Under the pieces are notes generated by a model. That model had not been told where the DNA came from. It worked only from the letters and a program-made list of their open reading frames with translations, and ran no database searches. The translations under genes were made by a program, and so were the position numbers. From positions 62,001 through 126,000 of the forward strand of contig NZ_JAESVA010000004.1 in NCBI RefSeq assembly GCF_020621385.1: a stretch of DNA of 64,000 bases. Direction: 5' to 3'. Each line of letters begins with the position of its first letter. Position 1 is the stretch's first letter. The DNA comes from Acidisoma cellulosilyticum. Lineage in GTDB: Bacteria > Pseudomonadota > Alphaproteobacteria > Acetobacterales > Acetobacteraceae. Of this stretch, positions 17,959 to 39,555 are shown in pieces.

Positions 17959-17960
17959 TC

Positions 17961-20580: not shown

Positions 20581-20614
20581 GCCGCGTCACGCGATCCCTG
20601 TGAAGCGAAGCCCG

Positions 20615-22009
20615 ATGTCAGCGATGCCGCCAGATAGCCAATCTTCCGCGGCCGACGGGCTGGCGAAATCCGCGCGCCTTCGGGCCATGACGGCGGTGGC
20701 GACGGCGGTCTTGCTGTCGGCGCTGGACTACACCGTGGTCAATGTCGCCATGCCCAGTATCGGGCATGACGTCCATGCGAGCGATTCCGCCGCGATATGG
20801 ATCATCAACGCCTATCAGGTCACCAGCCTTGTCGCTTTGCTGCCGGTGGCGTCGCTGGGCGAGAAATTCGGCCATGCGCGGATGTGCCGCATCGGCCTGG
20901 TTCTGTTCGTCCTGGCCTCGCTGCTATGCGCTGCCTCTCAGTCCCTGCCGGAACTTGCCTTGGCCAGAGCGCTGCAAGGATTGGGCAGCGCCTGCATATT
21001 GGGTGTGAATGCGGCGCTGATCCGGTTTATCTACCCGGCGCGGATCCTGGGTCGGGGCATCGCCTTGAACGCCCTGGTCATCGCGCTCGGCACTGCCTTG
21101 GGACCATCCGTTGCCGCCGCCGTCCTGTCCTTCGCCAGTTGGAAATGGCTGTTTCTGATCAATCTGCCCTTGGGCGGCCTGGCCATGTATTTTGCGGCGA
21201 CCGCTTTGCCGGCGACGCCCAGGGCGCGCGTCACATTCGATTGGCAGAGTGCCGTTCTGCTGGCGATCGGCCTGGTGGCACTCGTCGCCGGGGGCGATAA
21301 TTTTGCGCAAGGCAAGGGCGGCGTCTTCGGGTTTCTGTTGCTGGCACTCAGCTTTGTCAGCCTAGGCCTTATGGTGAGAATGCAACTCGCCCGTTCGCAC
21401 CCCCTGCTGCCGGTGGATCTTTTGGCGCGGCCGGACTTCGCCATTGCCTTCACGACCAGCGTTCTGGCCTTCATCGCGTCCAATTTCTTCATCATCTCGA
21501 TGCCCTTCAATCTTGCCAATGTGCTGCATCGAAACCCGGTGGAGACCGGCCTTATCATCACGGCCTGGCCGGTCGCGATCGTGCTGACCGCGCCTTTGGT
21601 CGGCCGGCTGGCGGATCGCTATCCCGCCGCCACCTTGACGTCATTGGGCATGGTGATCGTCAGCCTGGGCTTTCTTCTGCTGTGTTTTCTGCCGGCCCAT
21701 CCGAGCGATATCGACATTGTCTGGCGGATCGCGCTCGCCGGCTGCGGATTTTCCCTGGTGCAGCCGCCGAATAACCGGGCGATGCTGACGGCCGCGCCGA
21801 AGCACCGGATTTCCGGCGCCAGCGGCATGATCTCCGTCTCCCGATTGTCCGGCCAGACATTCGGCGGCATGCTGGTGGCGCTGACCTTGGGCCTGGTCCA
21901 TTCGTCACCGAACAAGACCTGCCTGGCGCTTGCCGCCTTGGCCGCTTTCACCGGTGCGGCGTTGAGCTTCAGCCGCGTCTTTTTCGAGACGGGCCGGCAA
22001 ATCGGGTGA
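20615..22009 (+). CDS. MFS transporter, DHA2 (EmrB/QacA-like) family
   Basis: 464 residues, with about 14 membrane helices. LSALDYTVVNVAMPSIGHDV is the typical first-helix motif D-x-TVVNVALP of DHA2 exporters, and LGSACILGVNAALIRFIYP matches the helix-5 antiporter motif region. The start is uncertain: ATG 20615 has a weak GAAG upstream and ATG 20624 is also possible. It lies 34 bases after otnC and may be cotranscribed. Usually a proton-driven efflux pump; here it could export a toxic intermediate or be unrelated. Confidence 0.82.
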   Translation: MSAMPPDSQSSAADGLAKSARLRAMTAVATAVLLSALDYTVVNVAMPSIGHDVHASDSAAIWIINAYQVTSLVALLPVASLGEKFGHARMCRIGLVLFVLASLLCAASQSLPELALARALQGLGSACILGVNAALIRFIYPARILGRGIALNALVIALGTALGPSVAAAVLSFASWKWLFLINLPLGGLAMYFAATALPATPRARVTFDWQSAVLLAIGLVALVAGGDNFAQGKGGVFGFLLLALSFVSLGLMVRMQLARSHPLLPVDLLARPDFAIAFTTSVLAFIASNFFIISMPFNLANVLHRNPVETGLIITAWPVAIVLTAPLVGRLADRYPAATLTSLGMVIVSLGFLLLCFLPAHPSDIDIVWRIALAGCGFSLVQPPNNRAMLTAAPKHRISGASGMISVSRLSGQTFGGMLVALTLGLVHSSPNKTCLALAALAAFTGAALSFSRVFFETGRQIG

Positions 22010-22042: not shown

Positions 22043-23422
22043 TCAGGCCGTCAGCCGGTCGCCGAGCCAGCGCAGAAACGTGGGGTCGCTGCCATAGGCG
22101 ACGTTGATGCGCATCGTCGTCGCATCCTCGCCCGAGACGGAAAAGGCGCGGGCGGGCGCGATGAAGATCCCGTTTTTTGCCGCATCGGCGACAAGGTCGA
22201 CCTCCGCCGCGCGATCCCTGGCATGGAGCCAGAGATAGAATCCGGTATTCGCCGGCCGTGCAATCTGGAAGCCTAGCCCTTCCAAACCCTCGATCGTTTT
22301 CGCGACGGCCTCGGCGAGGCGAAGCGTCAGCCGGCGCAGGTGCCGCAGATAATGCCCTTGTTCCATCAGCGCATGGATGAGCCGCTCATTATGGGCTGAG
22401 GTCGAGACCATGGTGACGACCGCAAGTTCAGTGAGTTCGTCCGTACGGCTGCGGCTGGCCGCGATATAGCCGGAGCGGAAGCTGCCCGCGAGCGTCTTCG
22501 AAAACGATCCGATATAGATCACCCGTTCGAGTTGATCGAGCGAGGCCAGCCTTGGTGTCGCATAGGGCAGGATATCGGCGAAAGGATCGTCTTCGATGAT
22601 GAGCATATCCTCGGACGCCGCCGCCTTCAGCAAGGCGAAGGCGCGGGCCAAGGTGATGGACCCACCCGTGGGATTATGCGCGAGCGACTGGGTGAAAAAA
22701 AGCAGGGCGCCGCTGCTGCGGGCCTTGGCGACGAAATCATCCACATCCGGCCCGTCATGCTGCCGCCGGACGCCGATGATGCGGGCACCGGCTATGTGGA
22801 GCTTGGAAAAGAGCGGGTAATAGCCGGGCTCATCGACGAGCACCGCGTCACCCGGACGCACATAGCTGCGAATGATGAGATCCATGGCGTGATTGGCACC
22901 ATGGGTCATCAAAATCTGGTCGGGCGTGCAGTCAATGCCGCGCTCACCCAAGGTGCCGCACAGACGCTCGCGCAGCAGTGGAAAGCCGCGTGCCGTATTG
23001 TAGTTATAGGCTTCCGGTGAGGTCAGCTTGATGGCGGAGAGGGCGCGTCGCAATTGCGCGTCCCCCAGCCAATCGGCAGGCAGGCGTCCGTCACCGGGGC
23101 GGATGAGCAGGCGCCGCTCCAACTGCTCCGTCAGGAGGGCCGCACCGTTCGGGATGCCGGCGAAGGGCGAGATCTTGCTGCGGACGGGTGCTGCCGCACC
23201 GCGGCTGACGTAATAGCCCGATCCCGGCCGGGATTGCAGAACGCCTTGCGCCACGAGGCGGATATAGGCGTCCACCACGGTATTCTTTGCGACGCCGAGG
23301 AGTTGTGCCTCGTCACGGATGGAACGCACGCGGTCACCCGGTCTCAGCACACCGGTCGCGATCTGTTGCAGGATGCCCTGAGCGACGAGATCGATCTTCG
23401 AGCCGGGCAGACCGCTGTCCAT
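22043..23422 (-). CDS. MocR family regulator 1 (GntR helix-turn-helix fused to PLP aminotransferase-like domain)
   Basis: 459 residues. Residues 1-75 form the GntR winged helix (PGDRVRSIRDEAQLLGVAKNTVVDAYIRLVAQGVL); the rest is a fold-type I aminotransferase domain with the PLP lysine in IGSFSKTLAGSFRSGY, the NPTGG motif, and an Arg for a carboxylate in TTMRINVAYGS. Such proteins bind PLP and an amine or amino-aldehyde effector rather than catalysing transamination. It is divergent from HMG-CoA reductase 1, with an inverted GTACC/GGTAC repeat between them, so it should regulate that half of the mevalonate island. It is paralogous to the MocR at 33313. Confidence 0.9.
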   Translation of the reverse strand: MDSGLPGSKIDLVAQGILQQIATGVLRPGDRVRSIRDEAQLLGVAKNTVVDAYIRLVAQGVLQSRPGSGYYVSRGAAAPVRSKISPFAGIPNGAALLTEQLERRLLIRPGDGRLPADWLGDAQLRRALSAIKLTSPEAYNYNTARGFPLLRERLCGTLGERGIDCTPDQILMTHGANHAMDLIIRSYVRPGDAVLVDEPGYYPLFSKLHIAGARIIGVRRQHDGPDVDDFVAKARSSGALLFFTQSLAHNPTGGSITLARAFALLKAAASEDMLIIEDDPFADILPYATPRLASLDQLERVIYIGSFSKTLAGSFRSGYIAASRSRTDELTELAVVTMVSTSAHNERLIHALMEQGHYLRHLRRLTLRLAEAVAKTIEGLEGLGFQIARPANTGFYLWLHARDRAAEVDLVADAAKNGIFIAPARAFSVSGEDATTMRINVAYGSDPTFLRWLGDRLTA

Positions 23423-23425
23423 ATT

Positions 23426-23447
23426 GTACCCCTTTTTTGTCTGGTAC
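23426..23447. promoter_or_regulatory. Putative MocR operator (inverted GTACC/GGTAC repeat)
   Basis: GTACC (23426-23430) and GGTAC (23443-23447) form a perfect inverted repeat with a 12-base T-rich spacer, directly upstream of the MocR 1 start codon. Read on the minus strand the proximal half is GGTACAAT next to the ATG; the same eight bases occur at the start of MocR 2 (33307-33314). Confidence 0.5.
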
Positions 23448-23581
23448 GGAGGCCACCAGTTTCTGCAAATCTGTCTCTGTCACACTCTTAGGCGCTCTCC
23501 TACATAGGAGGAAAGGCCGGTTCGCGGTCAGTGGGAGAAATTGGCCGGGAAGGCTGTCCCAAAATCCAAGGGAGCGCCGCT

Positions 23582-24868
23582 ATGCAGCCAGAGACTATCA
23601 AGACCCAGCAACCGGATCTGACGGGTGCCGCGCCTGCCGCGCGGCTTCATCAAGTGGCGGCCTTTGCGGGCCTGTCGGCCGATCAGACCGCCCATCTGGC
23701 GCAGCCCTCCAATATCGAGCGCTCGATCGCGGACCATATGATCGAGAATATGGTCACGACCCTTGCGATTCCGGTGGGCGTCGCGACTGGCTTGCTGGTC
23801 GACGGTCAGGAAGTGATGGTGCCGCTCGCGATCGAGGAGACCTCGATCGTCAGTTTCGTGACGGACTCGGCGCGGAAGTGCCGTCCGGCCGGCGGGATCA
23901 CAACCTCGATGTCCGGCACGGTGATGATCGCCCAGATCCAACTGGTCCATGTGCCCGATCCTTACCGCACCAGGACCCTGATCCTGGAACGTCGGGATGA
24001 GATCGGCGCGCTATGCGATGCCTGCGACCCGACCCTTTTGCGAATGGGTGGCGGCTTTCGGGATATCGAGGTTCGCATCATCGATACTGCGGCCGGGCCC
24101 ATGGTCGTGCTGCATCTTCTGATCGATACCCGCGACGCCATGGGCGCGAATACGGTCAATACCATGGCGGAGGCGGTGGCGCCCCGGCTGAAGGAATGGA
24201 CCGGGGCGCAGCCGCTGCTGCGTATCTTGTCCAATCTCGCTGACCGGCGCTTGGCGCGCGCGCACGCGACCTGGCGCCCCGCGGATATCGGCGGGGAGGC
24301 TGTGCGCGACGCGATCGTTTTGGCTTACCGCTTCGCCGATGCGGACCCTTACCGCGCGACGACCAACAATAAGGGCATCATGAACGGCATATCGGCCGTT
24401 GTGCTCGCGACCGGAAACGATACCCGCGCGGTGGAAGCCGGCGCCCATGCCTATGCCGCCAGGAGCGGCCGTTACCGCAGCCTGTCGCAATGGGAGGTCG
24501 ACGCCGAGGGCAATCTGTGCGGCTCGATCGAATTGCCGATGGCCGTGGGCCTGGTCGGCGGGGCGACGCGCACGCATCCGACGGCGCGGGTGTTGCTGGC
24601 CATTACCGGCGCCAAGACGGCCGAGGGACTGGCGCGTATCATCGCGGCGGTCGGGCTGGTGCAGAATTTCGGTGCCCTGCATGCGCTGACGACGGACGGC
24701 ATTCAGAAAGGGCATATGGCCCGCCATGCCTCAAACGTCGCGATCGATGCCGGCGCGGTCGGGGAGGATGTGGCGCAGGTCGCACAGGAAATGATCGCGC
24801 GTCGTAGCATCAATGTGGAGACGGCAAAGGCCATTCTTGCCGAAAGGCAGAGCCAGCGCGCCGATTGA
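23582..24868 (+). CDS. mvaA: HMG-CoA reductase, class II (degradative type), copy 1
   Basis: 428 residues, the size of the Pseudomonas mevalonii enzyme. All four catalytic residues are visible: Glu near 85 (PLAIEETSIV), Lys264 (TNNKGIMNG), Asp280 (GNDTRAVEAGA) and His382 (GHMARHASNVA). Other class II landmarks are HMIENMVTTLAIPVGVA and DTRDAMGANTVNTMAE. The reaction is mevalonate + CoA + 2 NAD to HMG-CoA + 2 NADH; the degradative direction is inferred from HMG-CoA lyase in the same island and the absence of isoprenoid genes. GGGAG precedes the ATG at 23582. It heads an operon with a lactonase, an SDR and a PEP-mutase-family gene. Confidence 0.93.
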   Translation: MQPETIKTQQPDLTGAAPAARLHQVAAFAGLSADQTAHLAQPSNIERSIADHMIENMVTTLAIPVGVATGLLVDGQEVMVPLAIEETSIVSFVTDSARKCRPAGGITTSMSGTVMIAQIQLVHVPDPYRTRTLILERRDEIGALCDACDPTLLRMGGGFRDIEVRIIDTAAGPMVVLHLLIDTRDAMGANTVNTMAEAVAPRLKEWTGAQPLLRILSNLADRRLARAHATWRPADIGGEAVRDAIVLAYRFADADPYRATTNNKGIMNGISAVVLATGNDTRAVEAGAHAYAARSGRYRSLSQWEVDAEGNLCGSIELPMAVGLVGGATRTHPTARVLLAITGAKTAEGLARIIAAVGLVQNFGALHALTTDGIQKGHMARHASNVAIDAGAVGEDVAQVAQEMIARRSINVETAKAILAERQSQRAD

Positions 24869-24928
24869 GCCGATAAGCAGGCCCCCAAGGCTTGCGCTAA
24901 AAACCAATAAAACAGGGAAACGCCAAGA

Positions 24929-25873
24929 ATGACCAAGGGATTCGACAAGACACCGGACCTTCGCTTTGTGCCGATACCGCCTTCGGAGCAGGGGCTGCAA
25001 ACCCTGACCGCCGAACCTTGGTTCAAGGTATCCGACAAGACGTTGCAGCTTGAGGGGCTTTGTTTCGACCGCGACGGCAACCTCGTTTTCTGCGATGTCT
25101 TCGGCGGCACGATCTTTCGGCTCGACCTGGCATCGATGGCCTTGAGCGAGGTCTACAAGGCGCCCCGCGAGATGCCGGCATCGGTCAAAGTACATCAGGA
25201 CGGACGGCTTTTCGTCTGCTGTCTGGGTGATTTCGAGACCGGCCATATTTTCGCGATCAATCCGGACGGCAGCGGACGGGAGACGATCTTGGAAGGCTAT
25301 GTCGCCGATGACATGGTCTTTGCGCCGGACGGGAGCTTCTATTTCACGCATTTCGTTGGAAAATCGACCGAACCGACCGGGGGCGTCTATCACGTCTCAG
25401 CGGACGGCAAGCAGGTGACGCCGATCCTGGAGAGGATGGCCGGCCCTAACGGCGTGGCACTTTCCAAGAATAATCGCGTCCTGTGGGTGACGGAGACGAA
25501 TGCCAACCGCCTGCATCTGATCGAATTGAATGACGGCGGAACCTCGATCGCGCATTACGGCACCTGCGTGCCTTATCATTTCACCGGCTTTCATGGGCCG
25601 GATTCCTGCAGCATCGACGACGAGGACAACCTTTATGTCGCGATGTATTCGCAAGGGCGGGTGATGATCTTCAATCCGGGTGGCTATCCGATCGGGCAGG
25701 TTCTGATCCCCGGACGGGAAAAGGGGCAGCATCTGCGGACAACGCATCCGATGCTTATCCCCGGCAGCGATGATCTGATCATCTGCACCAATGACGGCGC
25801 CGGCGACCAGGGGTCATGGCTGTTCCGCAGCAAGGGTTTCGCCCAAGCCCATCAAAGCTTCCAGTTCAGCTGA
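24929..25873 (+). CDS. SMP-30/gluconolactonase family lactonase
   Basis: 314 residues of beta-propeller. Family landmarks are LEGLCFDRDGNLVFCDVFGG, where the Glu is a metal ligand, GPNGVALSKNNRVLWVTET with the metal-binding Asn, and the DSCSIDDEDNLYVAMY strand carrying the catalytic Asp. These calcium- or zinc-dependent enzymes hydrolyse lactones. No signal peptide, so cytoplasmic. It lies 60 bases after HMG-CoA reductase 1 with an AGGGAAA ribosome binding site. In this operon the most economical substrate is mevalonolactone, opened to mevalonate; this is inference. Confidence 0.87.
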   Translation: MTKGFDKTPDLRFVPIPPSEQGLQTLTAEPWFKVSDKTLQLEGLCFDRDGNLVFCDVFGGTIFRLDLASMALSEVYKAPREMPASVKVHQDGRLFVCCLGDFETGHIFAINPDGSGRETILEGYVADDMVFAPDGSFYFTHFVGKSTEPTGGVYHVSADGKQVTPILERMAGPNGVALSKNNRVLWVTETNANRLHLIELNDGGTSIAHYGTCVPYHFTGFHGPDSCSIDDEDNLYVAMYSQGRVMIFNPGGYPIGQVLIPGREKGQHLRTTHPMLIPGSDDLIICTNDGAGDQGSWLFRSKGFAQAHQSFQFS

Positions 25874-25887
25874 TCGAGAGTATCGCC

Positions 25888-26634
25888 ATGCGATTGCAAA
25901 ACCAGACTGCCGTTGTGACGGGTGCCGCGCGGGGCATCGGGTTTGCGATAGCGCAGCGTTTCCTGCGCGAGGGCGCGCAGGTGATGATTGCGGATCTTGA
26001 CGGAGCGGCGGCGGCAGAGGCCGTGGCGCGGCTTGACGAGGAAGCGCCCGGCCGCAGTGCGGCGGTCGCCGTCGACGTGTCATCCAAGCCCGATTGCATG
26101 CGGATGATGGCAAGCGCCGCGGAGCGGTTCGGCGCTGTCGATATTCTGGTCTGCAATGCGGGCATCGTGCGGCGGGCCGCGCCGATCGAAGATATCGCGC
26201 CGGAGACATGGGACAAGGTGATTGGCGTGAACCTGATGGGATGCATCTATCCCACCCAGATTTTCGCGCCGATCGCCAAAGCCCGTGGCACCGGCAGGAT
26301 CATCTATATGGCCTCGGTCGCGGGCGAGGTCGGTGGCGTCAGCGCGGAAATCACCTATTCCGTGACCAAGGCCGGCGTGCTTTGCCTGACCAAGGCGGTC
26401 GCCAAACAGCTTGCGCCGCATGGCATCACGGTCAATGCCATCGCGCCCGGCGCGGTGCGGACAGCGATGACGGATGTGCTGCAATATGATGCCTCGGTCC
26501 AGAAATCGATTCCGCTCGGCACCTACGGCGATGTCGAGGATATCGCGAGTGCCGCCGCCTATCTTGCTTCCGCCGATGCCAAATACGTGACGGGCGCGAC
26601 GCTGGACGTGAACGGCGGCCTGTTCATGCGCTGA
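25888..26634 (+). CDS. Short-chain dehydrogenase/reductase
   Basis: A classical 248-residue SDR with TGAARGIGFAIA (NAD-binding), Asp in MIADLDGAAAAE after strand 2 (NAD preference), CNAGIVRR, catalytic Ser in MASVAGE and TYSVTKAG with the Tyr-Lys pair, and the C-terminal VTGATLDVNGG. The start at 25888 lies 14 bases after the lactonase stop. It is a member of the HMG-CoA reductase 1 operon. It could oxidise a hydroxylated precursor or side product of the mevalonate pathway; the substrate is not evident. Confidence 0.88.
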   Translation: MRLQNQTAVVTGAARGIGFAIAQRFLREGAQVMIADLDGAAAAEAVARLDEEAPGRSAAVAVDVSSKPDCMRMMASAAERFGAVDILVCNAGIVRRAAPIEDIAPETWDKVIGVNLMGCIYPTQIFAPIAKARGTGRIIYMASVAGEVGGVSAEITYSVTKAGVLCLTKAVAKQLAPHGITVNAIAPGAVRTAMTDVLQYDASVQKSIPLGTYGDVEDIASAAAYLASADAKYVTGATLDVNGGLFMR

Positions 26635-26675
26635 TTTCGGCGCCCGATTTTTGCCAGATGAATGGAGTGACGCTT

Positions 26676-27557
26676 ATGGATATGTACGAAAAGCGCGTGC
26701 GTCTGCGCCAGCTTGTCGCGGAACCCGACTGCACGCCTTTGATGGGCGCCTATGATGTGCTCAGCGCCAAGATCATCGAAAGCACGGGATTTCCGGTGCT
26801 TTATACCGGCAGCCTGGTCACGGGGGCGAGCGCTTTCGGCCTGCCCGATGTCGGGCTTGTCCAGCTTCATGACCTGCTCGGCCTGGCGCGGGAAATTGCC
26901 AAGGAAACCAATATTCCGATCGTCTGCGACGCGGATAGCGGCTGGTTCCATGCCGGCAATATCTGGCGGACGGTGCATGAATTCGAATCGGCCGGCGTCT
27001 CGGCCATTCATATCGAAGACCAGATTTTCGGCAAGCATACGACGCATGAGGCGATCCTGACCGATCCGGCAGAGATGGCCGAGCGCATCCGCGCCTGCTG
27101 CGACGCGCGGCGCGACCCCAATATGATGATCATCGCGCGAACCGATGCCTTGTATCTGCGCGACGATGTGGAGGACGCCATCGCCCGCGCCAATACCTAT
27201 CTGGCCGCCGGCGCTGACGCCGCCTTCATGGTCTTCAAGGGCTCCGTGCGGTCGCTGGCCGAATTCAGGCATCGTATCAAGGGACCGCTGGCCATTACCA
27301 GCGTGGATTTCCAGGATTCGATGGCCGACGAAACCAAGGCTGGCGCCAATATGTCGGTCTATTGGCCTTTGACGATTTTCGCGGCCTTCAAGGCCGTGAA
27401 GCAGGTTTGCGAAAGCTTCTGGCGGGACCGGGACGCGACCAAGCTTCAGGAATATTGCTTCGACGAAGGCGCGCTCAACAAGATCATGCCTTATGAGCGC
27501 TTCTACGAGAATGTGGAAAAATACAACGTCCGTGAGAGTCTGGCGAAGCGCGGCTGA
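26676..27557 (+). CDS. Isocitrate lyase/PEP mutase superfamily protein lacking the lyase Cys motif
   Basis: 293 residues of TIM barrel. LMGAYDVLSAKIIESTGF, CDADSGWFHAGNI and AIHIEDQIFGKH are family landmarks for Mg-oxoacid binding. The KKCGH catalytic loop of isocitrate and methylisocitrate lyases is replaced by FGKHTTHEA, with no Cys, so true C-C lyase chemistry of that type is unlikely; oxaloacetate-decarboxylase or phosphonopyruvate-hydrolase-like relatives also lack it. The start at 26676 follows GGAGTG; ATG 26658 is the alternative. Last gene of the HMG-CoA reductase 1 operon, ending before a strong terminator. Confidence 0.85.
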   Translation: MDMYEKRVRLRQLVAEPDCTPLMGAYDVLSAKIIESTGFPVLYTGSLVTGASAFGLPDVGLVQLHDLLGLAREIAKETNIPIVCDADSGWFHAGNIWRTVHEFESAGVSAIHIEDQIFGKHTTHEAILTDPAEMAERIRACCDARRDPNMMIIARTDALYLRDDVEDAIARANTYLAAGADAAFMVFKGSVRSLAEFRHRIKGPLAITSVDFQDSMADETKAGANMSVYWPLTIFAAFKAVKQVCESFWRDRDATKLQEYCFDEGALNKIMPYERFYENVEKYNVRESLAKRG

Positions 27558-27582
27558 TCTGGCGCAGGACAGGCGAAAGGGA

Positions 27583-27616
27583 AGGGCGGTCGCCAGGCAG
27601 CGACCGCCCTTTTTTT
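27583..27616 (+). terminator. Rho-independent terminator of the HMG-CoA reductase 1 operon
   Basis: AGGGCGGTCGC (27583-27593) and GCGACCGCCCT (27600-27610) form a perfect 11-bp stem with a 6-base loop, followed by T up to 27616. It sits 26 bases after the PEP-mutase-family stop and right at the end of the converging MFS gene; the T-run is on the plus strand only. Confidence 0.92.
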
Positions 27617-27617
27617 G

Positions 27618-28952
27618 TCAGCGGTGCACATGCTCCAAGATCGTCCGCGGCGGCACATGCTTCATGCAAAGCGCGCAGACGGCGGCGATGAGGGGAGCGG
27701 CCACGCACCACATCACCAAAGTCGCCGAATAGCCGGCATGGGAGAGTAGCCAGGGGCCAGTGATGGCCGCGACCATGAAGCCGAACCATTCCGAGGCGCC
27801 GACCAGGTTGCAGCCGGTGCCGCGCACGCGGGTCGGGAAGACCTCCGTCGCGAAACCAGCGGCCGAGGTGACATGGCCGAGCGTGAAGAAGTAGAAGCCA
27901 GCATAGAAGATCGTCAGCAAGATCCAGCTTGTCGCGGCGAAGGCAAGCAGGGCGCCGGCGCCGGCACCGAGAACCAGAAACAGCGCGCAGATCTCGCGCC
28001 GGCCGAACCGCTCGCCGAGGAAGGCTGCCAGAACATAGCCGATGGCGGCGATCGCCGTGGCGATGGCGGAGGAGGTGAAAGTGCCGGTCAGGGAAATGCC
28101 GAAATGCTTATAGACGGTCGGGAGATAGCTGATGATGCCCGCCGCGCCGAAAGCATAGACGAAATGCCAGATGGAGATGAAAATCGAGGAGCGGCGCAGA
28201 TCCGGTTCGAAAAGCTGGCTGATGCGGCTGCCGCGCAGTTCCGTATGCTGCCGCTCGATCGCGACTTCCTCCTGAAAGCGCTTTGTGTCCTCCACATTGC
28301 GCCGCGCCCAGATCATCATCAGGACGGGGATCAGGCCGCAGACGAACAGCACACGCCAGCCCCAGCGATCGACGATGGCAAGGGACATCAGCGCGCCCAG
28401 GAAGAAGCCGAGCGGATAGCCGATCTGCGCGATGCCGATGAGCCGACCCCTGACAGGCGCCGGTGCTTCCTCGGCCACCATCACCTGACCGGACATCCAT
28501 TCCGTGGCAGCGCCCACCTGCGTGATCGCGCGGCCCAGCAGCAATACGGCGAAGCCCGGGGCTGCCGCCGTGACGACGCTGCCGAGGGCGGCGGCGAAAA
28601 GACAGGCCTGGTAGATGGGCTTGCGGCCGATGCGGTCCATCATCGGGCCGGAGAAAAAGGTCGAGATGGCGCCGACCGCGTAAAGCAGCGTGTAGATCAG
28701 CGCGATGTCATTGTCGGAAAGGCCGAGATCCTTCTGGATCAGCGGATAGGTGAAATTGAACAAGCTGCCGTCTGCGTTGACCAGCAGCCAGCCACCCAAA
28801 GACAGGATCGTGACGAGCCAGGCGCGGCGCGGCACGCCGGCGAGGCCGAAGACGCCGAGGAAGCCCGTTTGGCGCACGGTGGTGAGGCGGGCTTCCATCG
28901 CGCCGCTGGGCTCGAACTGCTCCCGCGCTTTGACGATTTGACTTGGGTCCAT
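27618..28952 (-). CDS. MFS transporter, metabolite:H+ symporter type
   Basis: 444 residues, about twelve membrane helices. GPMMDRIGRKPIYQ is the MFS loop 2-3 signature, and AEEAPAPVRGRLIGIAQIGYPLG matches the helix 4-6 region of sialate/metabolite symporters. A near-ideal GGAGGAAAC precedes the ATG at 28952. It is the last gene of the minus-strand operon containing HMG-CoA reductase 2 and HMG-CoA lyase, 74 bases after the lyase stop. Likely importer of mevalonate or a related hydroxy acid, by context. Confidence 0.86.
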   Translation of the reverse strand: MDPSQIVKAREQFEPSGAMEARLTTVRQTGFLGVFGLAGVPRRAWLVTILSLGGWLLVNADGSLFNFTYPLIQKDLGLSDNDIALIYTLLYAVGAISTFFSGPMMDRIGRKPIYQACLFAAALGSVVTAAAPGFAVLLLGRAITQVGAATEWMSGQVMVAEEAPAPVRGRLIGIAQIGYPLGFFLGALMSLAIVDRWGWRVLFVCGLIPVLMMIWARRNVEDTKRFQEEVAIERQHTELRGSRISQLFEPDLRRSSIFISIWHFVYAFGAAGIISYLPTVYKHFGISLTGTFTSSAIATAIAAIGYVLAAFLGERFGRREICALFLVLGAGAGALLAFAATSWILLTIFYAGFYFFTLGHVTSAAGFATEVFPTRVRGTGCNLVGASEWFGFMVAAITGPWLLSHAGYSATLVMWCVAAPLIAAVCALCMKHVPPRTILEHVHR

Positions 28953-29026
28953 GAAAGTTTCCTCCGTTGTTGTTGTTTTTGGAAAGGGCGCGGTTGGTCA
29001 GGATTGCGCTATCATCGCTTTGGCCG

Positions 29027-29929
29027 TCACGGCGCCTGCGCCCGTGCTGCCGCCAGTTTCGAACGCGCCGGGTGGCCCAGACCAGCGACCGCGATTTGTC
29101 CGGCCGCGATCAATGCCTCCCGGTCGATCCCGGTCTCGATCCCCATGCCGTCCAGCATGGTGACGAGGTCTTCCGTGGAGACATTGCCGCTGGCGCCGGC
29201 GGCATAGGGACAGCCGCCGAGACCGCCGACAGCGGCATCGATCACGGAAACGCCGAGTTCCAGACAGGCAAAGATATTGGCCAAGGCCATGCCGTAGGTG
29301 TCGTGGAAATGCAGAGCGAGTGCGGCCATCGGGATGGCCTCAGCCACGGTTTGCAGCATCGCCCGCGCCTTCAGCGGCGTGCCGACGCCGATCGTGTCAC
29401 CCAGGGAGACTTCGTAGCAGCCAAGCTGCATCAAGGCCTGCGAGACATCCCGGACGCGGCTGACCGGTACATCGCCCTCATAGGGGCAGCCGAGCACGCA
29501 GGAGACATAGCCGCGCAGCCGAACGCCGTCCTGTGCTGCCGCTTCCGCGACCGGACGAAACCGGTCCAGGCTCTCGGCGATCGAGCAATTGATGTTGCGT
29601 TGGCTGAAGCTTTCGGATGCGGCCGCGAAGATGGCAACCTCCCGCGCGCCGGCAGCACGGGCCTCGCTATAGCCTTTCATATTGGGTGCCAGCACCGGAT
29701 AGGCGATGCCGGCATCAAGATCGAGCCCGGCCAGGACCGAAGCGGTATCCGCCATCTGCGGCACCCATTTGGGGGAGACGAAGCTGCCGGCCTCGATAAT
29801 GGTGAGGCCGGCTTGCACGAGGCCCTGAATGAGGGCGATTCGCCTCTCGGTCGGCAGGATGCGCGCTTCGTTCTGCAGCCCGTCACGCGGGCCGACCTCG
29901 ACGATGCGCACCCGCCGGGGGAAGGACAT
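29027..29929 (-). CDS. mvaB: Hydroxymethylglutaryl-CoA lyase
   Basis: 300 residues, full length for the family. The first strand VRIVEVGPRDGLQNEARIL carries the catalytic Arg-Asp pair; LALHFHDTYGMALAN gives the His-x-His metal ligands, and GGLGGCPYAAGASGNVSTED includes the catalytic-loop Cys. It cleaves HMG-CoA to acetoacetate and acetyl-CoA. It starts three bases after the stop of HMG-CoA reductase 2, so the two are cotranscribed exactly as in the mvaAB operon of Pseudomonas mevalonii, a gene order that indicates mevalonate breakdown. Confidence 0.95.
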   Translation of the reverse strand: MSFPRRVRIVEVGPRDGLQNEARILPTERRIALIQGLVQAGLTIIEAGSFVSPKWVPQMADTASVLAGLDLDAGIAYPVLAPNMKGYSEARAAGAREVAIFAAASESFSQRNINCSIAESLDRFRPVAEAAAQDGVRLRGYVSCVLGCPYEGDVPVSRVRDVSQALMQLGCYEVSLGDTIGVGTPLKARAMLQTVAEAIPMAALALHFHDTYGMALANIFACLELGVSVIDAAVGGLGGCPYAAGASGNVSTEDLVTMLDGMGIETGIDREALIAAGQIAVAGLGHPARSKLAAARAQAP

Positions 29930-29932
29930 GGC

Positions 29933-31210
29933 TCAGCCCTCGCCGCGCAGGCGCGCAAGCTCTTCGGCTGCGACATCCTGTCGGACCTGGCGCTTCTCCA
30001 CGAGGATTTTGGCGAGGCGCTGCACCTCATCCCCCACGGCGCCTACAACCATCGCCACGTTATGCGCATGCAAGGCCATATGGCCCTGCTGGATGCCGAC
30101 GGTCGCCAGCGCCTTCAGGGCGCCGAAATTCTGGGCGAGGCCGACCGCCGCGATGATGCGCGCCAGTTCCGAGGCCGTGGCGACGCCCATGATCTTCAGC
30201 GCGGCCTGGGCGGAGGGATGCACTTTGGTGGCGCCGCCCACCAGACCCACCGGCATCGGCATTTCCAAGGTGCCGACCAGCGATCCATCGGCGTCCACTT
30301 CATAGGTGCTGAGGCTGGTATAGCGGCCGGAACGCGCCGCGAAGGAATGGGCGCCGGCCTCGACCGCGCGGGTGTCGTTGCCGGTTGCCAGAACAATGGC
30401 GCTGACGCCGTTCATGATGCCCTTGTTATGCGTCGCCGCGCGGTAGGGGTCCGCCGCCGCGAAGCGATAGGCAGAGATCATACCGTCCCGCACCGCTTCG
30501 CCGCCGATCGCATCCAGCGTCCAAGTGGCCCGCGCGCGCGCCAGGCGACGATCCGCGAGATTGGACAAAATGCGCAGATAAACCTTGCCGCCGGTCCATT
30601 CCGCGATGGACGGGGCAAGCCGCTCCGCCATGGTATTGACCGTATTCGCGCCCATGGCATCGCGCGTATCGACGATGATATGCGTGATCACCATGGGGCC
30701 GCCTTCGGCTTCGATGACGCGAACCTCAAGATCCCGGAAGCCGCCGCCAAGGCGTACCAGCATCGGGTCGCAGCCGTTGCAGACCTCCTCGATTTTGTCG
30801 CGCTGTTCCAGAATGCGGATGCGGGCGGCCTTCGGGTCACTGACGCCGACAAGCTGGATCTGCGCGATCATCAGCGTGCCGGACATCGACGTGATGAAGC
30901 CGCCGGAATCGTAGCACTGGCGCGCGGAATTGCAGACGGCGGCGACGACGGAGGATTCCTCGGTCGCCATCGGCACCAATACGTCCCGTCCGTCGACCTT
31001 CACATTGGTCGCGATGCCGATCGGAATGCTGATGGAGGAGATGACATTCTCGATCATGTGGTCGGCGGTATGAAGGTCAAGGCTGCCGGGCTTGCCAAGC
31101 TGTTCGACACTGGCGCCATCAAGCCCCACCGCGCGCTGCACGGTCGCGAGCCTCTCGGCCGGCGTCATTTTATGAAAACCGCTGATGCGCGAATTAACGG
31201 TATTGGACAT
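29933..31210 (-). CDS. mvaA: HMG-CoA reductase, class II (degradative type), copy 2
   Basis: 425 residues. Catalytic residues are intact: Glu near 84 (MATEESSVV), Lys in THNKGIMNG, Asp in GNDTRAVEAGA and His in GHMALHAHNVA. It is clearly homologous to copy 1 along its whole length but differs at very many positions, so the two are diverged paralogues rather than a recent duplication. The ATG at 31210 is preceded by GGAGATGATTTG; an in-frame TTG directly before it is a less likely start. It is followed after two bases by the HMG-CoA lyase gene and preceded by a permease pair. Confidence 0.94.
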   Translation of the reverse strand: MSNTVNSRISGFHKMTPAERLATVQRAVGLDGASVEQLGKPGSLDLHTADHMIENVISSISIPIGIATNVKVDGRDVLVPMATEESSVVAAVCNSARQCYDSGGFITSMSGTLMIAQIQLVGVSDPKAARIRILEQRDKIEEVCNGCDPMLVRLGGGFRDLEVRVIEAEGGPMVITHIIVDTRDAMGANTVNTMAERLAPSIAEWTGGKVYLRILSNLADRRLARARATWTLDAIGGEAVRDGMISAYRFAAADPYRAATHNKGIMNGVSAIVLATGNDTRAVEAGAHSFAARSGRYTSLSTYEVDADGSLVGTLEMPMPVGLVGGATKVHPSAQAALKIMGVATASELARIIAAVGLAQNFGALKALATVGIQQGHMALHAHNVAMVVGAVGDEVQRLAKILVEKRQVRQDVAAEELARLRGEG

Positions 31211-31270
31211 CAAATCATCTCCATGATGTATGCGGAAGGTTGAGCTGTCCCCGTCTTGATCCGGGACAGG

Positions 31271-32656
31271 TCAACCAACGAAAAGCTTGATGAGTGCGGG
31301 CATGCCGAGAGCGGCCGCGTAATAGCCCATGAACTGGACCCCGGTATTGAAACCGATCACGCGATAGAGCAGACCACCGAAGAGCCCGACGGTGAGGATC
31401 ACCAGCAGGCCGAGCGCGCCGCCTTCCCACAATCCGATGACGAGGACGAGGCCGAAGAAGGTGCCGATGATGGCTTCGTGGCTGACCCTGCGGGACACGA
31501 AAGAGGCGGCGGCATGGGCATAGTTCATGGCGAAGGGATAGGCGACGACCGCACCGAGGATGACGGCGAGAAGGCCGTACAGCAGAAACTGCATCGGCGT
31601 CATCATCGTATGCAGGTTGACGACATGGCCGGTTGCCGAATCCACCGAAAAGCGCGGCGGCGCGTTGAACAGGGGGGCCGCCGGCCCTGCGGCCACTGGG
31701 CTGAGCGGCAAGCCGAAGGCGACGAGCGGGATCAGGGCTTCGGCGATATAGGTCGCTTCCGTCACGCCGTTGCGCACGCTGATGACGGTGGTCAGCCGAT
31801 GATAGGCATGTTTGATGCGGGAGGCGACGACTTCACCCAGAATGACCGTCATCGCGACCGGGCTGAAGACGAAGGTGGCGCTGGAGATGGCGGCTGCCGC
31901 GATGGTCCAGCGGATCTGAACGCCGTCGAGCACGCGGAACGGGTTCGGAAAATACCCCGACCAACTCTTCACATCCGGTGCAAGCGAGAAGCGGCGCGGT
32001 GCGTCGCGCAGCATATGGCGGCGCTCGACGGGGGAGAGGACCGCGATAAGGTCCGCGATCAGCGGGCTGACCGCGATGCCGAGGAAGTAGCTGACCCCGA
32101 GCTTGACGCCGAATTTCGCCGTGAAGCTCTGCAGCGCGCTGATGACGAGCACGAAGGGGATGAGCGCCAGAACCGAAGCCCAACGCCCGGCCGAGAAATA
32201 GGCGATGAGGAGGGCAGCCGCGAGAAAGATCCAAGGCGCGCCCTTCATGATCATCTGGCCGAAGGGTGCCAGCAGCAGCGCGAAGCCGATCGACAGCGGC
32301 ACGGCAACCACGGCCGCGATGACGGCGCTGGAGATCATCTTGCGCAATGCGATATGCGGAATCCCGAGGCGCTTGAGGGCCGTCGCCTGCGGCATCAGCG
32401 GCACGGCCATGGTGTCGCCCGGAATGCCCAGGAGCGCGGTCGGCACGGCATGCGTGATGTGTTTGGAGACCGCGGCGGCCAGCCAGAAGGTGAAAATGCC
32501 GGTGGGCGGCACGCCCAGCAGGACGACGAGCAGGGTGAGGGGCGCGATGGTCGTCGTCTCATCCGTGCCGGAGACGAGGCCGATGGCCGAGAACAGCACC
32601 GAGCCGACGAGGCCCATGCCAAGACCCCAGAACAGATCGGGCAGGAAGCTGTGCAT
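31271..32656 (-). CDS. Multi-pass permease, tentatively TctA-like (tripartite tricarboxylate transporter family)
   Basis: 461 residues with roughly ten to twelve membrane helices. TALLGIPGDTMAVPLMPQA and LKRLGIPHIALRKMISSAVI resemble the PGE and DG-MAKQG repeat region of TctA permeases, but the match is divergent. Its ATG overlaps the stop of the two-helix membrane protein gene by one base (TGATG), like the TctB-TctA pairing. No TctC-type periplasmic binding protein is present. Context (HMG-CoA reductase and lyase downstream) suggests import of mevalonate or another branched hydroxy acid. Confidence 0.7.
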   Translation of the reverse strand: MHSFLPDLFWGLGMGLVGSVLFSAIGLVSGTDETTTIAPLTLLVVLLGVPPTGIFTFWLAAAVSKHITHAVPTALLGIPGDTMAVPLMPQATALKRLGIPHIALRKMISSAVIAAVVAVPLSIGFALLLAPFGQMIMKGAPWIFLAAALLIAYFSAGRWASVLALIPFVLVISALQSFTAKFGVKLGVSYFLGIAVSPLIADLIAVLSPVERRHMLRDAPRRFSLAPDVKSWSGYFPNPFRVLDGVQIRWTIAAAAISSATFVFSPVAMTVILGEVVASRIKHAYHRLTTVISVRNGVTEATYIAEALIPLVAFGLPLSPVAAGPAAPLFNAPPRFSVDSATGHVVNLHTMMTPMQFLLYGLLAVILGAVVAYPFAMNYAHAAASFVSRRVSHEAIIGTFFGLVLVIGLWEGGALGLLVILTVGLFGGLLYRVIGFNTGVQFMGYYAAALGMPALIKLFVG

Positions 32657-33129
32657 CAGACAACCTCCCCACGCGCGGCCCGGTTTGCGACGTCAAGCAG
32701 TCCGAGGGCCCGCATTTCGCGCTCGACGGCGGGGGTGAGGTGGGCCGAGAGGCCAAGCGGACCGCTTTCGGCCTCAAGCAACGCGATGGCTTCCTGGCGC
32801 CAGGCGATGTCGTCTTCCTCCACCATTTGCCGCTTGGGCTTGAAGCGCCAGGCGCAGACGGTGCCACCGACAACGCAACCGACCAGCCCGGCCAGCATGG
32901 CGTAGGCATGCGCGACGGAGGGCTTTGCGACGAAACTCGCAAAGACGAAGCCCGCGAGGATGTAGATGGCAAGGCTGATGACAGCGCCGATGACCATGGC
33001 CCCAGCCAGATGCCGCAGATCGACGACGTCACCCCAAAGCTCCGCATAGATGGGATCGGTGCCAGGTCGCGCCGCCTGCACATCTCGAATAGCCTGGTCC
33101 TGTCCCGCCACCGCTTCCCCCTTCACCAT
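32656..33129 (-). CDS. Small two-helix membrane protein coupled to the TctA-like permease
   Basis: 157 residues. Two hydrophobic segments, around AGAMVIGAVISLAIYILAG and HAYAMLAGLVGCVVGGTV, are flanked by a soluble N-terminus of about 45 residues and a C-terminal acidic/helical tail of about 65 residues (QMVEEDDIAWRQEAIALLE). TctB proteins usually have four helices, so this would be a shorter partner, or a different family. The start ATG at 33129 has only a weak ribosome binding site and is uncertain. First gene of the HMG-CoA reductase 2 operon, divergent from MocR 2. Confidence 0.62.
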   Translation of the reverse strand: MVKGEAVAGQDQAIRDVQAARPGTDPIYAELWGDVVDLRHLAGAMVIGAVISLAIYILAGFVFASFVAKPSVAHAYAMLAGLVGCVVGGTVCAWRFKPKRQMVEEDDIAWRQEAIALLEAESGPLGLSAHLTPAVEREMRALGLLDVANRAARGEVV

Positions 33130-33266
33130 TGCGTTCGCGCGGGGAAACAGGACCGGAGGGTCTGGGCAGACTATGCCAAGCCTTGTCGATCCTCCCGCGG
33201 ACGAGCCGGTTTCCCCAGCCAATTGACGTAAGGTGACCAAGTCTGCGTAGCATGCACAAGAGACAA

Positions 33267-33312
33267 TTCGGGCCCTTCGGACCCGACCTGTCCCAGTCAG
33301 TTGGGTGGTACA
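33267..33312. promoter_or_regulatory. Putative MocR 2 control region
   Basis: An imperfect inverted repeat, TCGGG at 33267-33271 and CCCGA at 33281-33285 with partly paired interior, is followed by TGGTACA (33306-33312) immediately before the MocR 2 ATG. GGTACAAT is shared with the MocR 1 start region. The 183-base gap also has to hold the promoter of the opposite permease/HMG-CoA reductase 2 operon. Confidence 0.35.
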
Positions 33313-34704
33313 ATGCCGCGTCACGAAAACGATCTGGGTGCCAGTCGCACGCAGCGCCTGGTGGCGACGCTGGCGCGCATGCTGGAAGCGGGTGCGCCCA
33401 AGCCGGGTGAGCGGCTGCCTTCGGTCCGTCAGGCGGCAGAGACCCATGGCGTATCCAAGAACACCATGGCCGAAGTCTATGACAGGCTGGTCGCGTCCGG
33501 CCATCTGGAGGCAAGACGGGGGGCGGGATATTTCGCCCGCACCCATCCCGCCAAGTCCCCTCGTTGGGAGGCGCCGCATGTCTCCCAGGCGATCGACCTT
33601 GTGTCGCTGTTGCGGGAGCAACTGGACCAGCATTACGCCGTGCGCCCGGGTGACGGCCGGCCGCCGGCCTCCTGGATGGAAAAATCGGAGCTCGGGGCGC
33701 ATTTCCGGGCCGTGCGGGACGGGCAGTCCGGTTCCGTGGAATTCGGCTATGGCAGTTCCTGGGGCTATCTGCCGCTGCGCGAAAGGATCAGCCTCATGCT
33801 GGAGGAACGCTCCATCCAGAGCGGCCTGGACCAGCTGTTGCTGACGCATGGCGCCAATCATGCGTTGGACCTTATCATCCGCCGCTTCGTCGAGCCGGGC
33901 GACGTGGTTTTTGTCGATAGCCCCGGCTATTACCCGTTATTTGGCAAGCTGAAACTGGCCAAGGCCCAGATCATCGGCATCACGCGTCGGCCCGACGGGC
34001 CGGATCTGGACGAGCTCGCCGCACAGTTGAAAGATCATCAACCGCGCTTGTTCTTTACCCAGTCACTGGCGCATAACCCGACCGGCGGTTCCATGGGCAT
34101 GCATGTCGCCCACAGCTTGCTGCGTGCCGCCGAAACGCATGATTTTCAAATCGTGGAGGATGACGCATTCGCGGATATTCTGCCGCCCCTTCTGCCGCGA
34201 CTGGCAGCCTTCGATCAATTGCGCCGCGTCATCTATGTCGGCACGTTTGCCAAGACACTCTCAGCCTCGCTCAGGGTGGGCTATATCGCGGGCGACCGGG
34301 AAACGGTATCGGCCCTCAGCGATATCAAGCTTGTGACGACGGTCGCGACCTCGGACTTTGCCGAGCGTCGGGTCTATGATCTGATCGCCGGCGGACATTA
34401 CCTGCGGCATCTGAGGCGATTAAGACAGCGCGTGAAAGACGCGACCGCCGAGGCGCTGCAGCAGTTACGGGAAACGCCGCTGGTCTTTCCGCAGACGAGC
34501 TATGGCGGTTTCTATCTATGGGCGGAGCTTCCCCACAATGCAGATGAACTGGCGCTCTGTGCCAGGGCCGCCAATGAAGGCATATTCCTGGCACCCGGTT
34601 GCGTCTTCCGCCCGGACAGATCAACGACCAATCCAGCCCTGCGATTGAATGTCGCACACGCGAACGATCCACGATTTCTCGAATTTCTGCGCCAGGCCCT
34701 GTGA
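33313..34704 (+). CDS. MocR family regulator 2 (GntR helix-turn-helix fused to PLP aminotransferase-like domain)
   Basis: 463 residues. The winged helix (PGERLPSVRQAAETHGVSKNTMAEVYDRLVASG) leads into an aminotransferase fold with the PLP lysine in VGTFAKTLSASLRVGY, the motif LAHNPTGGSMG and PALRLNVAHAN. It matches MocR 1 closely in architecture and in several stretches (TQSLAHNPTGGS, HYLRHLRRL, LLTHGANHALDLIIR), so the pair arose by duplication. It is divergent from the permease/HMG-CoA reductase 2/lyase operon and should control it. Start ATG 33313, with GGGTGG five bases upstream; an in-frame TTG at 33301 is less likely. Confidence 0.9.
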   Translation: MPRHENDLGASRTQRLVATLARMLEAGAPKPGERLPSVRQAAETHGVSKNTMAEVYDRLVASGHLEARRGAGYFARTHPAKSPRWEAPHVSQAIDLVSLLREQLDQHYAVRPGDGRPPASWMEKSELGAHFRAVRDGQSGSVEFGYGSSWGYLPLRERISLMLEERSIQSGLDQLLLTHGANHALDLIIRRFVEPGDVVFVDSPGYYPLFGKLKLAKAQIIGITRRPDGPDLDELAAQLKDHQPRLFFTQSLAHNPTGGSMGMHVAHSLLRAAETHDFQIVEDDAFADILPPLLPRLAAFDQLRRVIYVGTFAKTLSASLRVGYIAGDRETVSALSDIKLVTTVATSDFAERRVYDLIAGGHYLRHLRRLRQRVKDATAEALQQLRETPLVFPQTSYGGFYLWAELPHNADELALCARAANEGIFLAPGCVFRPDRSTTNPALRLNVAHANDPRFLEFLRQAL

Positions 34705-34757: not shown

Positions 34758-35630
34758 CTAAGAGGACGCCAAGTCCGCCACGCCCACGAGGCCTGCATCG
34801 GCACCGAGCCTGGCTGCGCGGATGCCAAGCCGCAACCGCGCCGGCGCCTGCGCCATGGCGGTGTCGATGCGCGCGAGAAAACCCGTCGCGAGGCCAACGC
34901 TGCCACCGATGACCGCGCAATCCAGCTCCAGCGCTGCATGCAGGCTGCAGAGGACCGAAGCAATCGACTGGGCAGCGTCATCCAACACCGCCGCCGCCTG
35001 CGCGTCGGTTGTGGCCGCCCGGAACAAGTCTTCGCAGGTCAATGCCCGCCCCAGACGGCGCGCGCCCGCGCGTTCCAAGGCAGGGCCGGACGCCACGGCC
35101 TCCAGACAGCCATATCGGCCGCAGCCGCATAACGGGCCTGCGGGGTCGGCCAGGATATGGCCCACATGTCCGGCGAGGCCGCCCGATCCGGTTCGCAGCC
35201 TGCCATCCAGCACCAGCCCGCCGCCGATCCCGGTGGAGACGGTGAGGAAGAGCATGGAGCCGGTGCCCTGGCCCGCGCCGTGGCGGTATTCGCCCCAGGC
35301 CGCGGCCTGTGCGTCATTCATCGCGCGCACCGGCACGCCGAGGCGCGCGCCGAGCAGCGCCTCGATCGGCAGGCCGAAGGGCACATCGAGCGTCTTGGGG
35401 TTGATGGCCGTCAGCCGCCCCTGATCGACGAGCCCCGTCGTCGCGAGGGCGACCACACCATCCGCCCAGTCGCCCGCAAGGCCAGCGATCGCCGCCAGGA
35501 CATCGTCGAAATTTCCGGTGCGGGGCGTCGGCACCTGGCGCCGTTCCAGAATCCGCGCGCCTTGCACCCGTGCGGCGGCGATTTTGGTGCCGCCGAGGTC
35601 GATCGCGGTCGTGGGCCCATCAATAGCCAC
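34758..35630 (-). CDS. nanK: ROK family sugar kinase, probable N-acetylmannosamine kinase NanK
   Basis: 290 residues. AIDLGGTKIAAARV is the ATP-phosphate motif, MNDAQAAAWGEYR and LTVSTGIGGGLV are the ROK signature, and GHVGHILADPAG with LCGCGRYGCLEAVASG forms the ROK zinc site. It phosphorylates N-acetylmannosamine (or glucose-type sugars) at C6. NanE in the same operon makes NanK the best assignment. The GTG at 35630 is chosen: it overlaps the rpiR stop by 11 bases and removes a poorly conserved 12-residue leader. Confidence 0.85.
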   Translation of the reverse strand: MAIDGPTTAIDLGGTKIAAARVQGARILERRQVPTPRTGNFDDVLAAIAGLAGDWADGVVALATTGLVDQGRLTAINPKTLDVPFGLPIEALLGARLGVPVRAMNDAQAAAWGEYRHGAGQGTGSMLFLTVSTGIGGGLVLDGRLRTGSGGLAGHVGHILADPAGPLCGCGRYGCLEAVASGPALERAGARRLGRALTCEDLFRAATTDAQAAAVLDDAAQSIASVLCSLHAALELDCAVIGGSVGLATGFLARIDTAMAQAPARLRLGIRAARLGADAGLVGVADLASS

Positions 35631-39528: not shown

Positions 39529-39555
39529 AGAGAGATCCTCGGGCCTTGGTCAGGG

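Follow-up and report, generated by a model that had tools for sequence, protein, structure and literature searches.

Positions 22043–34704 of a 64,000-nucleotide stretch of the Acidisoma cellulosilyticum genome (contig NZ_JAESVA010000004.1, positions 62,001–126,000; hereafter the window) hold eleven genes that very probably form a composite island for the use of mevalonate and mevalonolactone, made of two MocR-controlled modules of different lineages. The gene content, the lack of recognised mevalonate synthesis genes in the genome, a conserved operator-like motif at both promoters and the separate ancestry of the modules are computed results. Scanning the open reading frames with Pfam and NCBIfam profiles recovered all the gene families and strands given in an initial annotation of this DNA, with its mirrored layout and two MocR divergent pairs. 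The parts of the island, which centres on 3-hydroxy-3-methylglutaryl-CoA (HMG-CoA) reductase (HMGR), are as follows:

22043–23422, minus strand: MocR1, a regulator with a GntR DNA-binding and an aminotransferase-fold domain (PF00392, 7.6e-11; PF00155, 9.3e-26)
23423–23477, plus strand: predicted MocR operator for the left half, with three boxes (19.5 bits; boxes at 0, +20 reversed and +47)
23531–24868, plus strand: HMGR1, degradative class II HMG-CoA reductase (TIGR00532, 400.7 bits; cut-off 259.95)
24929–25873, plus strand: SMP-30 lactonase, Drp35-type, a predicted mevalonolactonase (Drp35 structure, PDB 2dg0, E 2.5e-108)
25816–26634 (open reading frame; probable start 25888), plus strand: short-chain dehydrogenase/reductase (SDR; PF13561, 206.8 bits)
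26658–27557, plus strand: enzyme of the isocitrate-lyase/phosphoenolpyruvate (PEP)-mutase fold (ICL-fold; PF13714, 163.4 bits)
27577–27616, no strand: hairpin common to both halves, probable terminator (fold of 27545–27640, z −3.75)
27618–28952, minus strand: major facilitator superfamily (MFS) transporter (PF07690, 183.8 bits)
29027–29929, minus strand: HMG-CoA lyase (NF004283, 442.8 bits; cut-off 246)
29933–31213, minus strand: HMGR2, degradative class II HMG-CoA reductase (TIGR00532, 475.7 bits; cut-off 259.95)
31271–32656, minus strand: divergent TctA-type permease (PF01970, 53.8 bits; cut-off 28.9)
32656–33129, minus strand: small membrane protein paired with TctA, TctB-like by position only (2–3 hydrophobic segments in a crude scan)
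33260–33314, minus strand: predicted MocR operator for the right half, with three boxes, which overlaps the probable start of MocR2 (26.5 bits)
33301–34704 (probable start 33313), plus strand: MocR2 (PF00392, 3e-11; PF00155, 9.6e-25)

The left half runs on the plus strand from HMGR1 through the lactonase and SDR genes to the ICL-fold gene, with MocR1 divergent, and the right half comprises, on the minus strand, the small membrane protein, TctA, HMGR2, HMG-CoA lyase and MFS genes, with MocR2 divergent (likely start codons, judged by eye: HMGR1, 23582; SDR, 25888; MocR2, 33313). As the initial annotation proposed, the halves converge on one probable terminator: the 60 bases between the converging stop codons hold a strong hairpin with a T-run, and the 96-nt stretch 27545–27640 folds at −46.8 kcal/mol, a value equalled by 0 of 200 shuffles. 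A simple terminator consensus scan did not have this hairpin in its list and returned 10 sites for the region against 8.8 expected by shuffling. The G+C content of the island resembles that of its surroundings, and no tRNA was detected within the window.

Both reductases exceed the cut-off of the degradative-type profile and match the structure of the Pseudomonas mevalonii enzyme (1qax; 426.7 bits for HMGR1, 468.6 for HMGR2). In an alignment, Glu83, Lys267, Asp283 and His381, which we take to be the catalytic residues, are identical in HMGR1 and HMGR2, as is Asp146, presumably of the NAD type. HMGR2 is 81% identical to the HMGR of a lichen-associated locus (L008). Excerpts of a study of Ruegeria HMGR (PMC12292504) report that residue D154 decides cofactor choice and that the wild type uses mainly NADH; D154 probably equals Asp146 of the window enzymes. 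A profile search of the A. cellulosilyticum genome (6.0 Mb, 59 contigs, 98.5% complete) found two HMGRs, both in the island. The HMG-CoA lyase matches structures 2cw6 (human mitochondrial HMG-CoA lyase) and 2ftp at E of about 1e-108, and PF00682 matches in the genome were this lyase and a 569-residue open frame on contig C1, taken from its size alone to be of the isopropylmalate-synthase type. The island lyase is the only clear one recognised in the genome.

Could the island serve isoprenoid synthesis or handle leucine-derived HMG-CoA instead of supporting growth on mevalonate? HMGR and HMG-CoA lyase are generally known to occur in isoprenoid and leucine routes as well, but the genome gave no match to the models for HMG-CoA synthase and mevalonate kinase and does contain DXS, the reductases are of the degradative type, and the operons carry a lactonase and transporters. 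We therefore rejected a biosynthetic role, and consider the alternative as a whole highly improbable. Because the two HMGRs lie here with one clear lyase, in a genome with DXS and no recognised HMG-CoA synthase or mevalonate kinase, the island appears catabolic rather than biosynthetic, and HMGR1 and HMGR2 are predicted to oxidise mevalonate with CoA and NAD+. Together with the Drp35-type lactonase, these features support the mevalonate and mevalonolactone catabolism put forward in the initial annotation.

The lactonase is 56.2% identical to Staphylococcus Drp35 over 299 columns and keeps Glu, Asp, Asn and Asp at Drp35 positions 48, 138, 185 and 236, which we take to be the metal and catalytic residues. 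Its likeness to Drp35 suggests a mevalonolactonase: according to excerpts of the Drp35 study (PMC6052127), the purified enzyme hydrolysed mevalonolactone at 478 µmol/min/mg and other lactones tested at least 100-fold more slowly, and its authors suggested mevalonolactone as the physiological substrate. Drp35-like genes adjoin HMGR in 4 of 118 non-window HMGR loci (L008, L053, L085 and L179); the 118 are a set of 102 plus 16 later ones, from which L194 and L195 were left out since they had no HMGR match at the locus, although the genome profile search had reported one. In a lactonase tree (without L179), the window protein grouped with an S. epidermidis copy (100/99) and L053 with three genomes of the class (99/98), L008 and L085 having no resolved position; the association of lactonase with HMGR thus probably arose more than once. 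A Drp35-like gene (E 1e-60) was found in 4 of 385 class genomes, all 4 of which also have HMGR, against 16 of the 381 others over cut-off (Fisher p 5.4e-6; 1.0e-4 without the own genome; 3 of the 4 genomes belong to one genus). Both counts were taken as one 385-genome draw, the listed genome labels agreeing, and the HMGRs counted are not all of the degradative type. In these three genomes of one genus, lactonase and HMGR lie on different contigs.

Position 138 varies among these proteins. It is Asp in all five HMGR-linked lactonases (the window, L008, L053, L085 and L179). Of 8 relatives that have no HMGR nearby, four carry Asn (L138, L139, L140 and L142) and four Asp (L136, L137, L141 and L143). 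The Asn138 lactonases, all from plasmids, lie near paoABC- or SDR-type clusters. This suggests that Drp35-like lactonases fall into subgroups marked by Asp or Asn at 138.

How might the island work? The enzyme steps rest on family knowledge and Drp35 chemistry; substrates, direction of flux, operator function, inducer and cross-regulation are inferred. The TctA-type permease with its small partner, the MFS carrier, or both, would import mevalonate or its lactone; the lactonase would open mevalonolactone to mevalonate; HMGR2, and probably HMGR1, would oxidise mevalonate with CoA and NAD+ to HMG-CoA; and the single lyase would yield acetyl-CoA and acetoacetate from HMG-CoA. Each MocR may recognise an alternating operator of three boxes next to its own start codon and so control the divergent operon, the inducer probably being mevalonate or a product of it.

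Consistent with MocR membership, both regulators combine a GntR domain with an aminotransferase-fold domain bearing the lysine for pyridoxal phosphate (PLP). The Lys, Asn, Asp, Tyr and Arg to which we assign PLP-site roles are identical in 61 of 61 aligned MocRs, the presumed PLP lysine being kept in MocR1. At 236.2 and 218.1 bits, MocR1 and MocR2 fall under the NF052282 cut-off of 320, and identity as PdxR was rejected. The initial annotation named co-occurrence with MocR and SMP-30 genes in other genomes as a check: an SMP-30 lactonase of the Drp35 type adjoins HMGR in the four loci given above, and a MocR above 180 bits was found in 59 of 102 HMGR loci, divergent in 41, convergent in 14 and on the same strand in 4. 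To judge from kinship or title, every one of the 18 loci with a non-divergent MocR is from the window's own family, and many loci without a MocR are archaeal or Gram-positive. Eighty loci were the best 80 of at least 592, chosen by kinship to HMGR2; loci were 3 to 21 kb long and mutually related, some of them redundant (L012 = L118; L007 = L129, the latter excluded from the 102). No MocR was found at L184, L187, L188, L193, L194 or L195, which lie outside the 38 loci used below to test the operator model. A pair of genes for a family III CoA-transferase and an enoyl-CoA hydratase adjoins MocR-HMGR in L017, L178, L180, L181, L182 and L186, and could feed free 3-hydroxy-3-methylglutarate or methylglutaconate into the mevalonate route.

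The word ACTGTACC occurs in 24 of 50 non-redundant MocR upstream regions; when two-base blocks were shuffled 20 times, no 8-mer occurred in more than 10. The sites of many loci are arranged alike, with a reversed box at +20 from a first forward box and a second forward box at +46 or +47; other loci are spaced differently or have no site. We built an operator model from 15 training loci picked by eye, the window not being among them. Across 255,744 placements on both strands of the window, its two best matches were at the starts of MocR2 (26.5 bits) and MocR1 (19.5 bits), with 6.2 bits for the third. In all 15 training loci and in 31 of 38 test loci, the highest-scoring match anywhere in the locus (of up to 21 kb) fell between −60 and 400 bases upstream of MocR, some of these 31 matches being weak (6–11 bits); the misses were L017, L054, L075, L082, L178, L180 and L181. 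In the non-divergent loci of the window's family, the best match was at MocR in 0 of 18. It lay instead 111–210 bases upstream of the TctC gene heading the HMGR operon in 12 of 18, with 8 at 19 bits or more and the four weaker ones at 1.3–9.0 bits, the 1.3-bit match (L121) being on the strand opposite the operon. A first-box pre-filter was applied in this TctC-upstream scan and not in the MocR-upstream scan; the unfiltered best for L121 is 7.0 bits. Thus, it is apparently the HMGR operon, and not the regulator gene, that the motif accompanies.

Excerpts of a study of MocR regulons (PMC5320631) describe operators of several boxes, direct or inverted, in which a TGT or TGG group is conserved; one reported class has three alternating boxes. 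The same predicted operator class stands at both window promoters, which makes cross-regulation between the MocRs possible; as the predicted operators touch the start codons of their own MocR genes, autoregulation and cross-talk appear likely. The initial annotation had placed the modules under separate PLP-dependent regulators: two PLP-fold MocRs are indeed present, but the shared operator class calls for caution about their separateness.

Are the two halves copies of each other? The mirrored plan and the recurrence of the same two gene families at both ends, with HMGR1 and HMGR2 59% identical and MocR1 and MocR2 44%, would suit a local inverted duplication of one MocR-HMGR unit retained for dosage. 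The trees point elsewhere. An HMGR tree of 54 sequences placed HMGR1 with the HMGRs of five sphingomonads (100/99) and HMGR2 in a group of 21 rows from the window's family and its close relatives (98/97), and a clade of HMGR1 with HMGR2 was rejected by the approximately unbiased (AU) test (p 0.0145). In a MocR tree of 73, MocR1 grouped with five sphingomonad MocRs (100) and a MocR1-MocR2 clade was rejected at p 1.5e-9; MocR2 had no close supported group, and the rows nearest to it came from a Lichenicola plasmid and from members of the window's family. The HMGR test is not strong, and is the weaker of the two, as HMGR1 sits on a long branch (1.06); MocR1 does so too, the program warned of meeting long branches in the MocR tree, and both tests were set up after the first trees had been viewed. 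With both AU tests against it, we rejected local duplication, to which we give very little credence. The two MocR-HMGR pairs appear instead to be of separate ancestry and to have been brought together here. What the initial annotation called a duplicated plan is therefore better seen as two largely complementary halves, with the lactonase on the left and transport and lyase on the right.

Only the own genome showed two HMGRs in a sample of 395 order genomes (HMGR1 matches in 20, one of them a fragment) and in one of 385 class genomes (matches in 21, over cut-off in 20). In the family of Sphingosinicella soli, 5 of 298 genomes match, with a single copy each, and HMGR was found in 0 of the 4 same-genus genomes listed. 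All candidates were scored in the class sample; in the order and Sphingosinicella-family samples, where scoring did not extend to all first-look candidates, a weak second copy may have escaped notice. That no other sampled genome showed two HMGRs marks the island as lineage-specific, and in this sense the halves are never together elsewhere, which the initial annotation had named as a point against its reading. The function is not undone by this, since the sphingomonad locus L179 (genome G1102) holds in a single module a MocR1-type regulator divergent from HMGR, an HMG-CoA lyase, a 343-residue frame, a small protein, TctA and a Drp35-like lactonase.

Several observations weigh against the reading as a MocR-controlled mevalonate and mevalonolactone island: (i) the two halves stand together in no other sampled genome; (ii) HMGR1 carries A88S, A89F, H265N and L384R at positions that are 99–100% conserved in the other 104 aligned sequences; (iii) the SDR and ICL-fold genes have no place in the known mevalonate route; (iv) among five sphingomonad loci of the MocR1 type, four (L017, L178, L180 and L181) give no match to the operator model at MocR, and its first box is unrecognisable in at least 5 training loci (L021, L081, L083, L085 and L043, the last also having a shifted second box); and (v) no HMGR was found in any of the 7 plasmid neighbourhoods of Drp35-like genes examined (from 15 records), nor in the Drp35-like neighbourhoods of three class genomes (L143–L145). 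Family membership alone thus does not prove a mevalonolactone substrate, and the plasmid neighbourhoods argue against all Drp35-like lactonases serving it.

An alternative is that only the right half serves mevalonate, the left half being a route of its own for a different, related lactone or hydroxy acid. Besides its long branch, HMGR1 has its four substitutions near catalytic residues in sequence, and they are absent from the sphingomonad relative L017; moreover, the left half has an SDR and an ICL-fold enzyme in place of an HMG-CoA lyase, and neither gene shares an operon with any of the remaining four lactonases linked to HMGR (SDRs of 32–35% identity occur at L053 and L085, but on the other strand and further away). 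Against this stand the Drp35-type lactonase with its four residues kept, since Drp35 prefers mevalonolactone, the intact catalytic residues of HMGR1, and an HMG-CoA lyase adjoining 2 of the 5 closest HMGR1/MocR1 relatives (L178 and L179). We regard a separate left-half route as unlikely and favour joint use of mevalonate and its lactone by both halves.

The SDR and ICL-fold proteins gave few hints of their own. Among 25 NCBIfam families listed for the SDR, only the broad subfamily NF005559 (named glucose 1-dehydrogenase) was over cut-off (226.1 against 215 bits), and no plasmid match was found at 1e-50. None of the 7 NCBIfam families matched by the ICL-fold protein reached its cut-off, and its identity as a methylisocitrate lyase or PEP mutase equivalog was rejected (169.1 of 354.4 and 135.3 of 319.55 bits). 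The loop aligned to KRCGH, whose Cys we take to mark the methylisocitrate lyase/PEP mutase type, reads KHTTH and so lacks Cys. PEP-mutase-family relatives occur in at least 33 plasmid records (31–41% identity among the matches listed) and in 5 others of 299 genomes of the order (38–43%). At L193, where HMGR lies beside genes of the tripartite ATP-independent periplasmic (TRAP) type, PEP-mutase-family (35%) and SDR (33%) genes lie within 5 kb on the other strand, possibly an echo of the window's left half, or chance.

The initial annotation counted two import systems; both are there, but in the right half, the left having neither transporter nor lyase. For TctA, six plasmid records hold copies of 69–74% identity, and 5 of 5 examined adjoin HMGR. 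The small membrane protein is conserved beside TctA and reaches no Pfam cut-off. A full tripartite tricarboxylate transporter (TctABC) was rejected in favour of a TctA-type pair only, with no recognisable TctB and no TctC among the ten other island genes. Transport genes beside HMGR vary between loci (TctA type with small protein, TRAP DctPQM, TctC and Peripla_BP_6; one representative of each was scanned), and the MFS carrier is the window's addition to these kinds. None of the NCBIfam matches listed for it reaches its cut-off, and one plasmid record matched, with no HMGR found nearby. Structure matches of the TRAP binding protein did not name mevalonate, nor did the open-licence literature yield anything linking mevalonate with a TRAP solute binding protein.

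The island is flanked by other catabolic clusters. At 16657–22009 lie genes for an MFS transporter, an Asp/Glu-racemase family protein, an SBD_N/NBD_C protein (presumably of the four-carbon-acid-sugar kinase type), a class II aldolase and a second MFS transporter. The cluster at 34758–41867, with a ROK kinase, an RpiR regulator, parts of binding-protein-dependent transport, NanE and an MFS transporter, looks like one for the use of amino sugars or N-acetylmannosamine. Elsewhere in the window are a 1050-residue protein that combines a subtilase domain with a Hint_2 domain at its C-terminus (8650–11802) and an AtuA-like protein (short partial match) adjoining a luciferase-like monooxygenase (42230–45196).

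More general and more useful than the island itself is the MocR-operator-HMGR association. It ties mevalonate catabolism to a widespread MocR linkage with a predicted operator, to four neighbouring transport kinds besides MFS and to a lactonase type with published mevalonolactone activity, so that the regulator, operator, inducer and uptake of the pathway become directly testable and biosensors for mevalonate or mevalonolactone could result. It also raises the question of how MocR proteins sense a nitrogen-free molecule. One speculative extension, which we hold doubtful, is that the HMGR-linked MocRs are a widespread family that binds three-box alternating operators and senses an amino-less carboxylate (mevalonate or its lactone) through the PLP-fold domain, the left half having shifted to a related lactone as a new pathway branch, with an altered HMGR1 pocket, the SDR and the ICL-fold enzyme.

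How does the island compare with known systems? The multi-box operators of described MocR regulons, with three alternating boxes and a TGT core, resemble the predicted ones (excerpts of PMC5320631). MocR proteins are best known there for vitamin B6, γ-aminobutyrate and taurine; the main text holds none of the strings 'HMG', 'mva', 'TctA' and 'isopren', and no mevalonate-type regulon was noticed in the excerpts. No published MocR-mevalonate regulon was found in the open-licence literature, where absence is weak evidence. Staphylococcus Drp35 shares 56% identity and the four residues with the window lactonase, the S. epidermidis copy being its sister in the tree, but its host synthesises mevalonate, whereas the window gene lies in a catabolic operon (excerpts of PMC6052127). 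Locus L179 unites parts common to both halves in one cluster, yet as a single module in which nothing matches the SDR, ICL-fold or MFS protein of the window. In loci with a single MocR-HMGR pair, from Roseomonas plasmids (L003 and L007), Lichenicola (L004), Rhizobium etli (L005), Caballeronia and Pseudomonas (L064 and L067), MocR is likewise divergent from HMGR, and TctA, the small membrane protein and an HMG-CoA lyase (on the MocR side in L005) are present as well, but each has one MocR, one HMGR and no lactonase. Mevalonate catabolism is usually described as a matter of two genes, and the mvaAB operon of Pseudomonas mevalonii consists of a degradative HMGR and an HMG-CoA lyase. The window island, which is real and mostly as first described, is a composite variant of this known degradation: HMGR2 and the lyase are adjacent and of the same enzyme types as in mvaAB, and to them the window adds a lactonase, a second HMGR, TctA and MFS transport and MocR regulators, in two operons.

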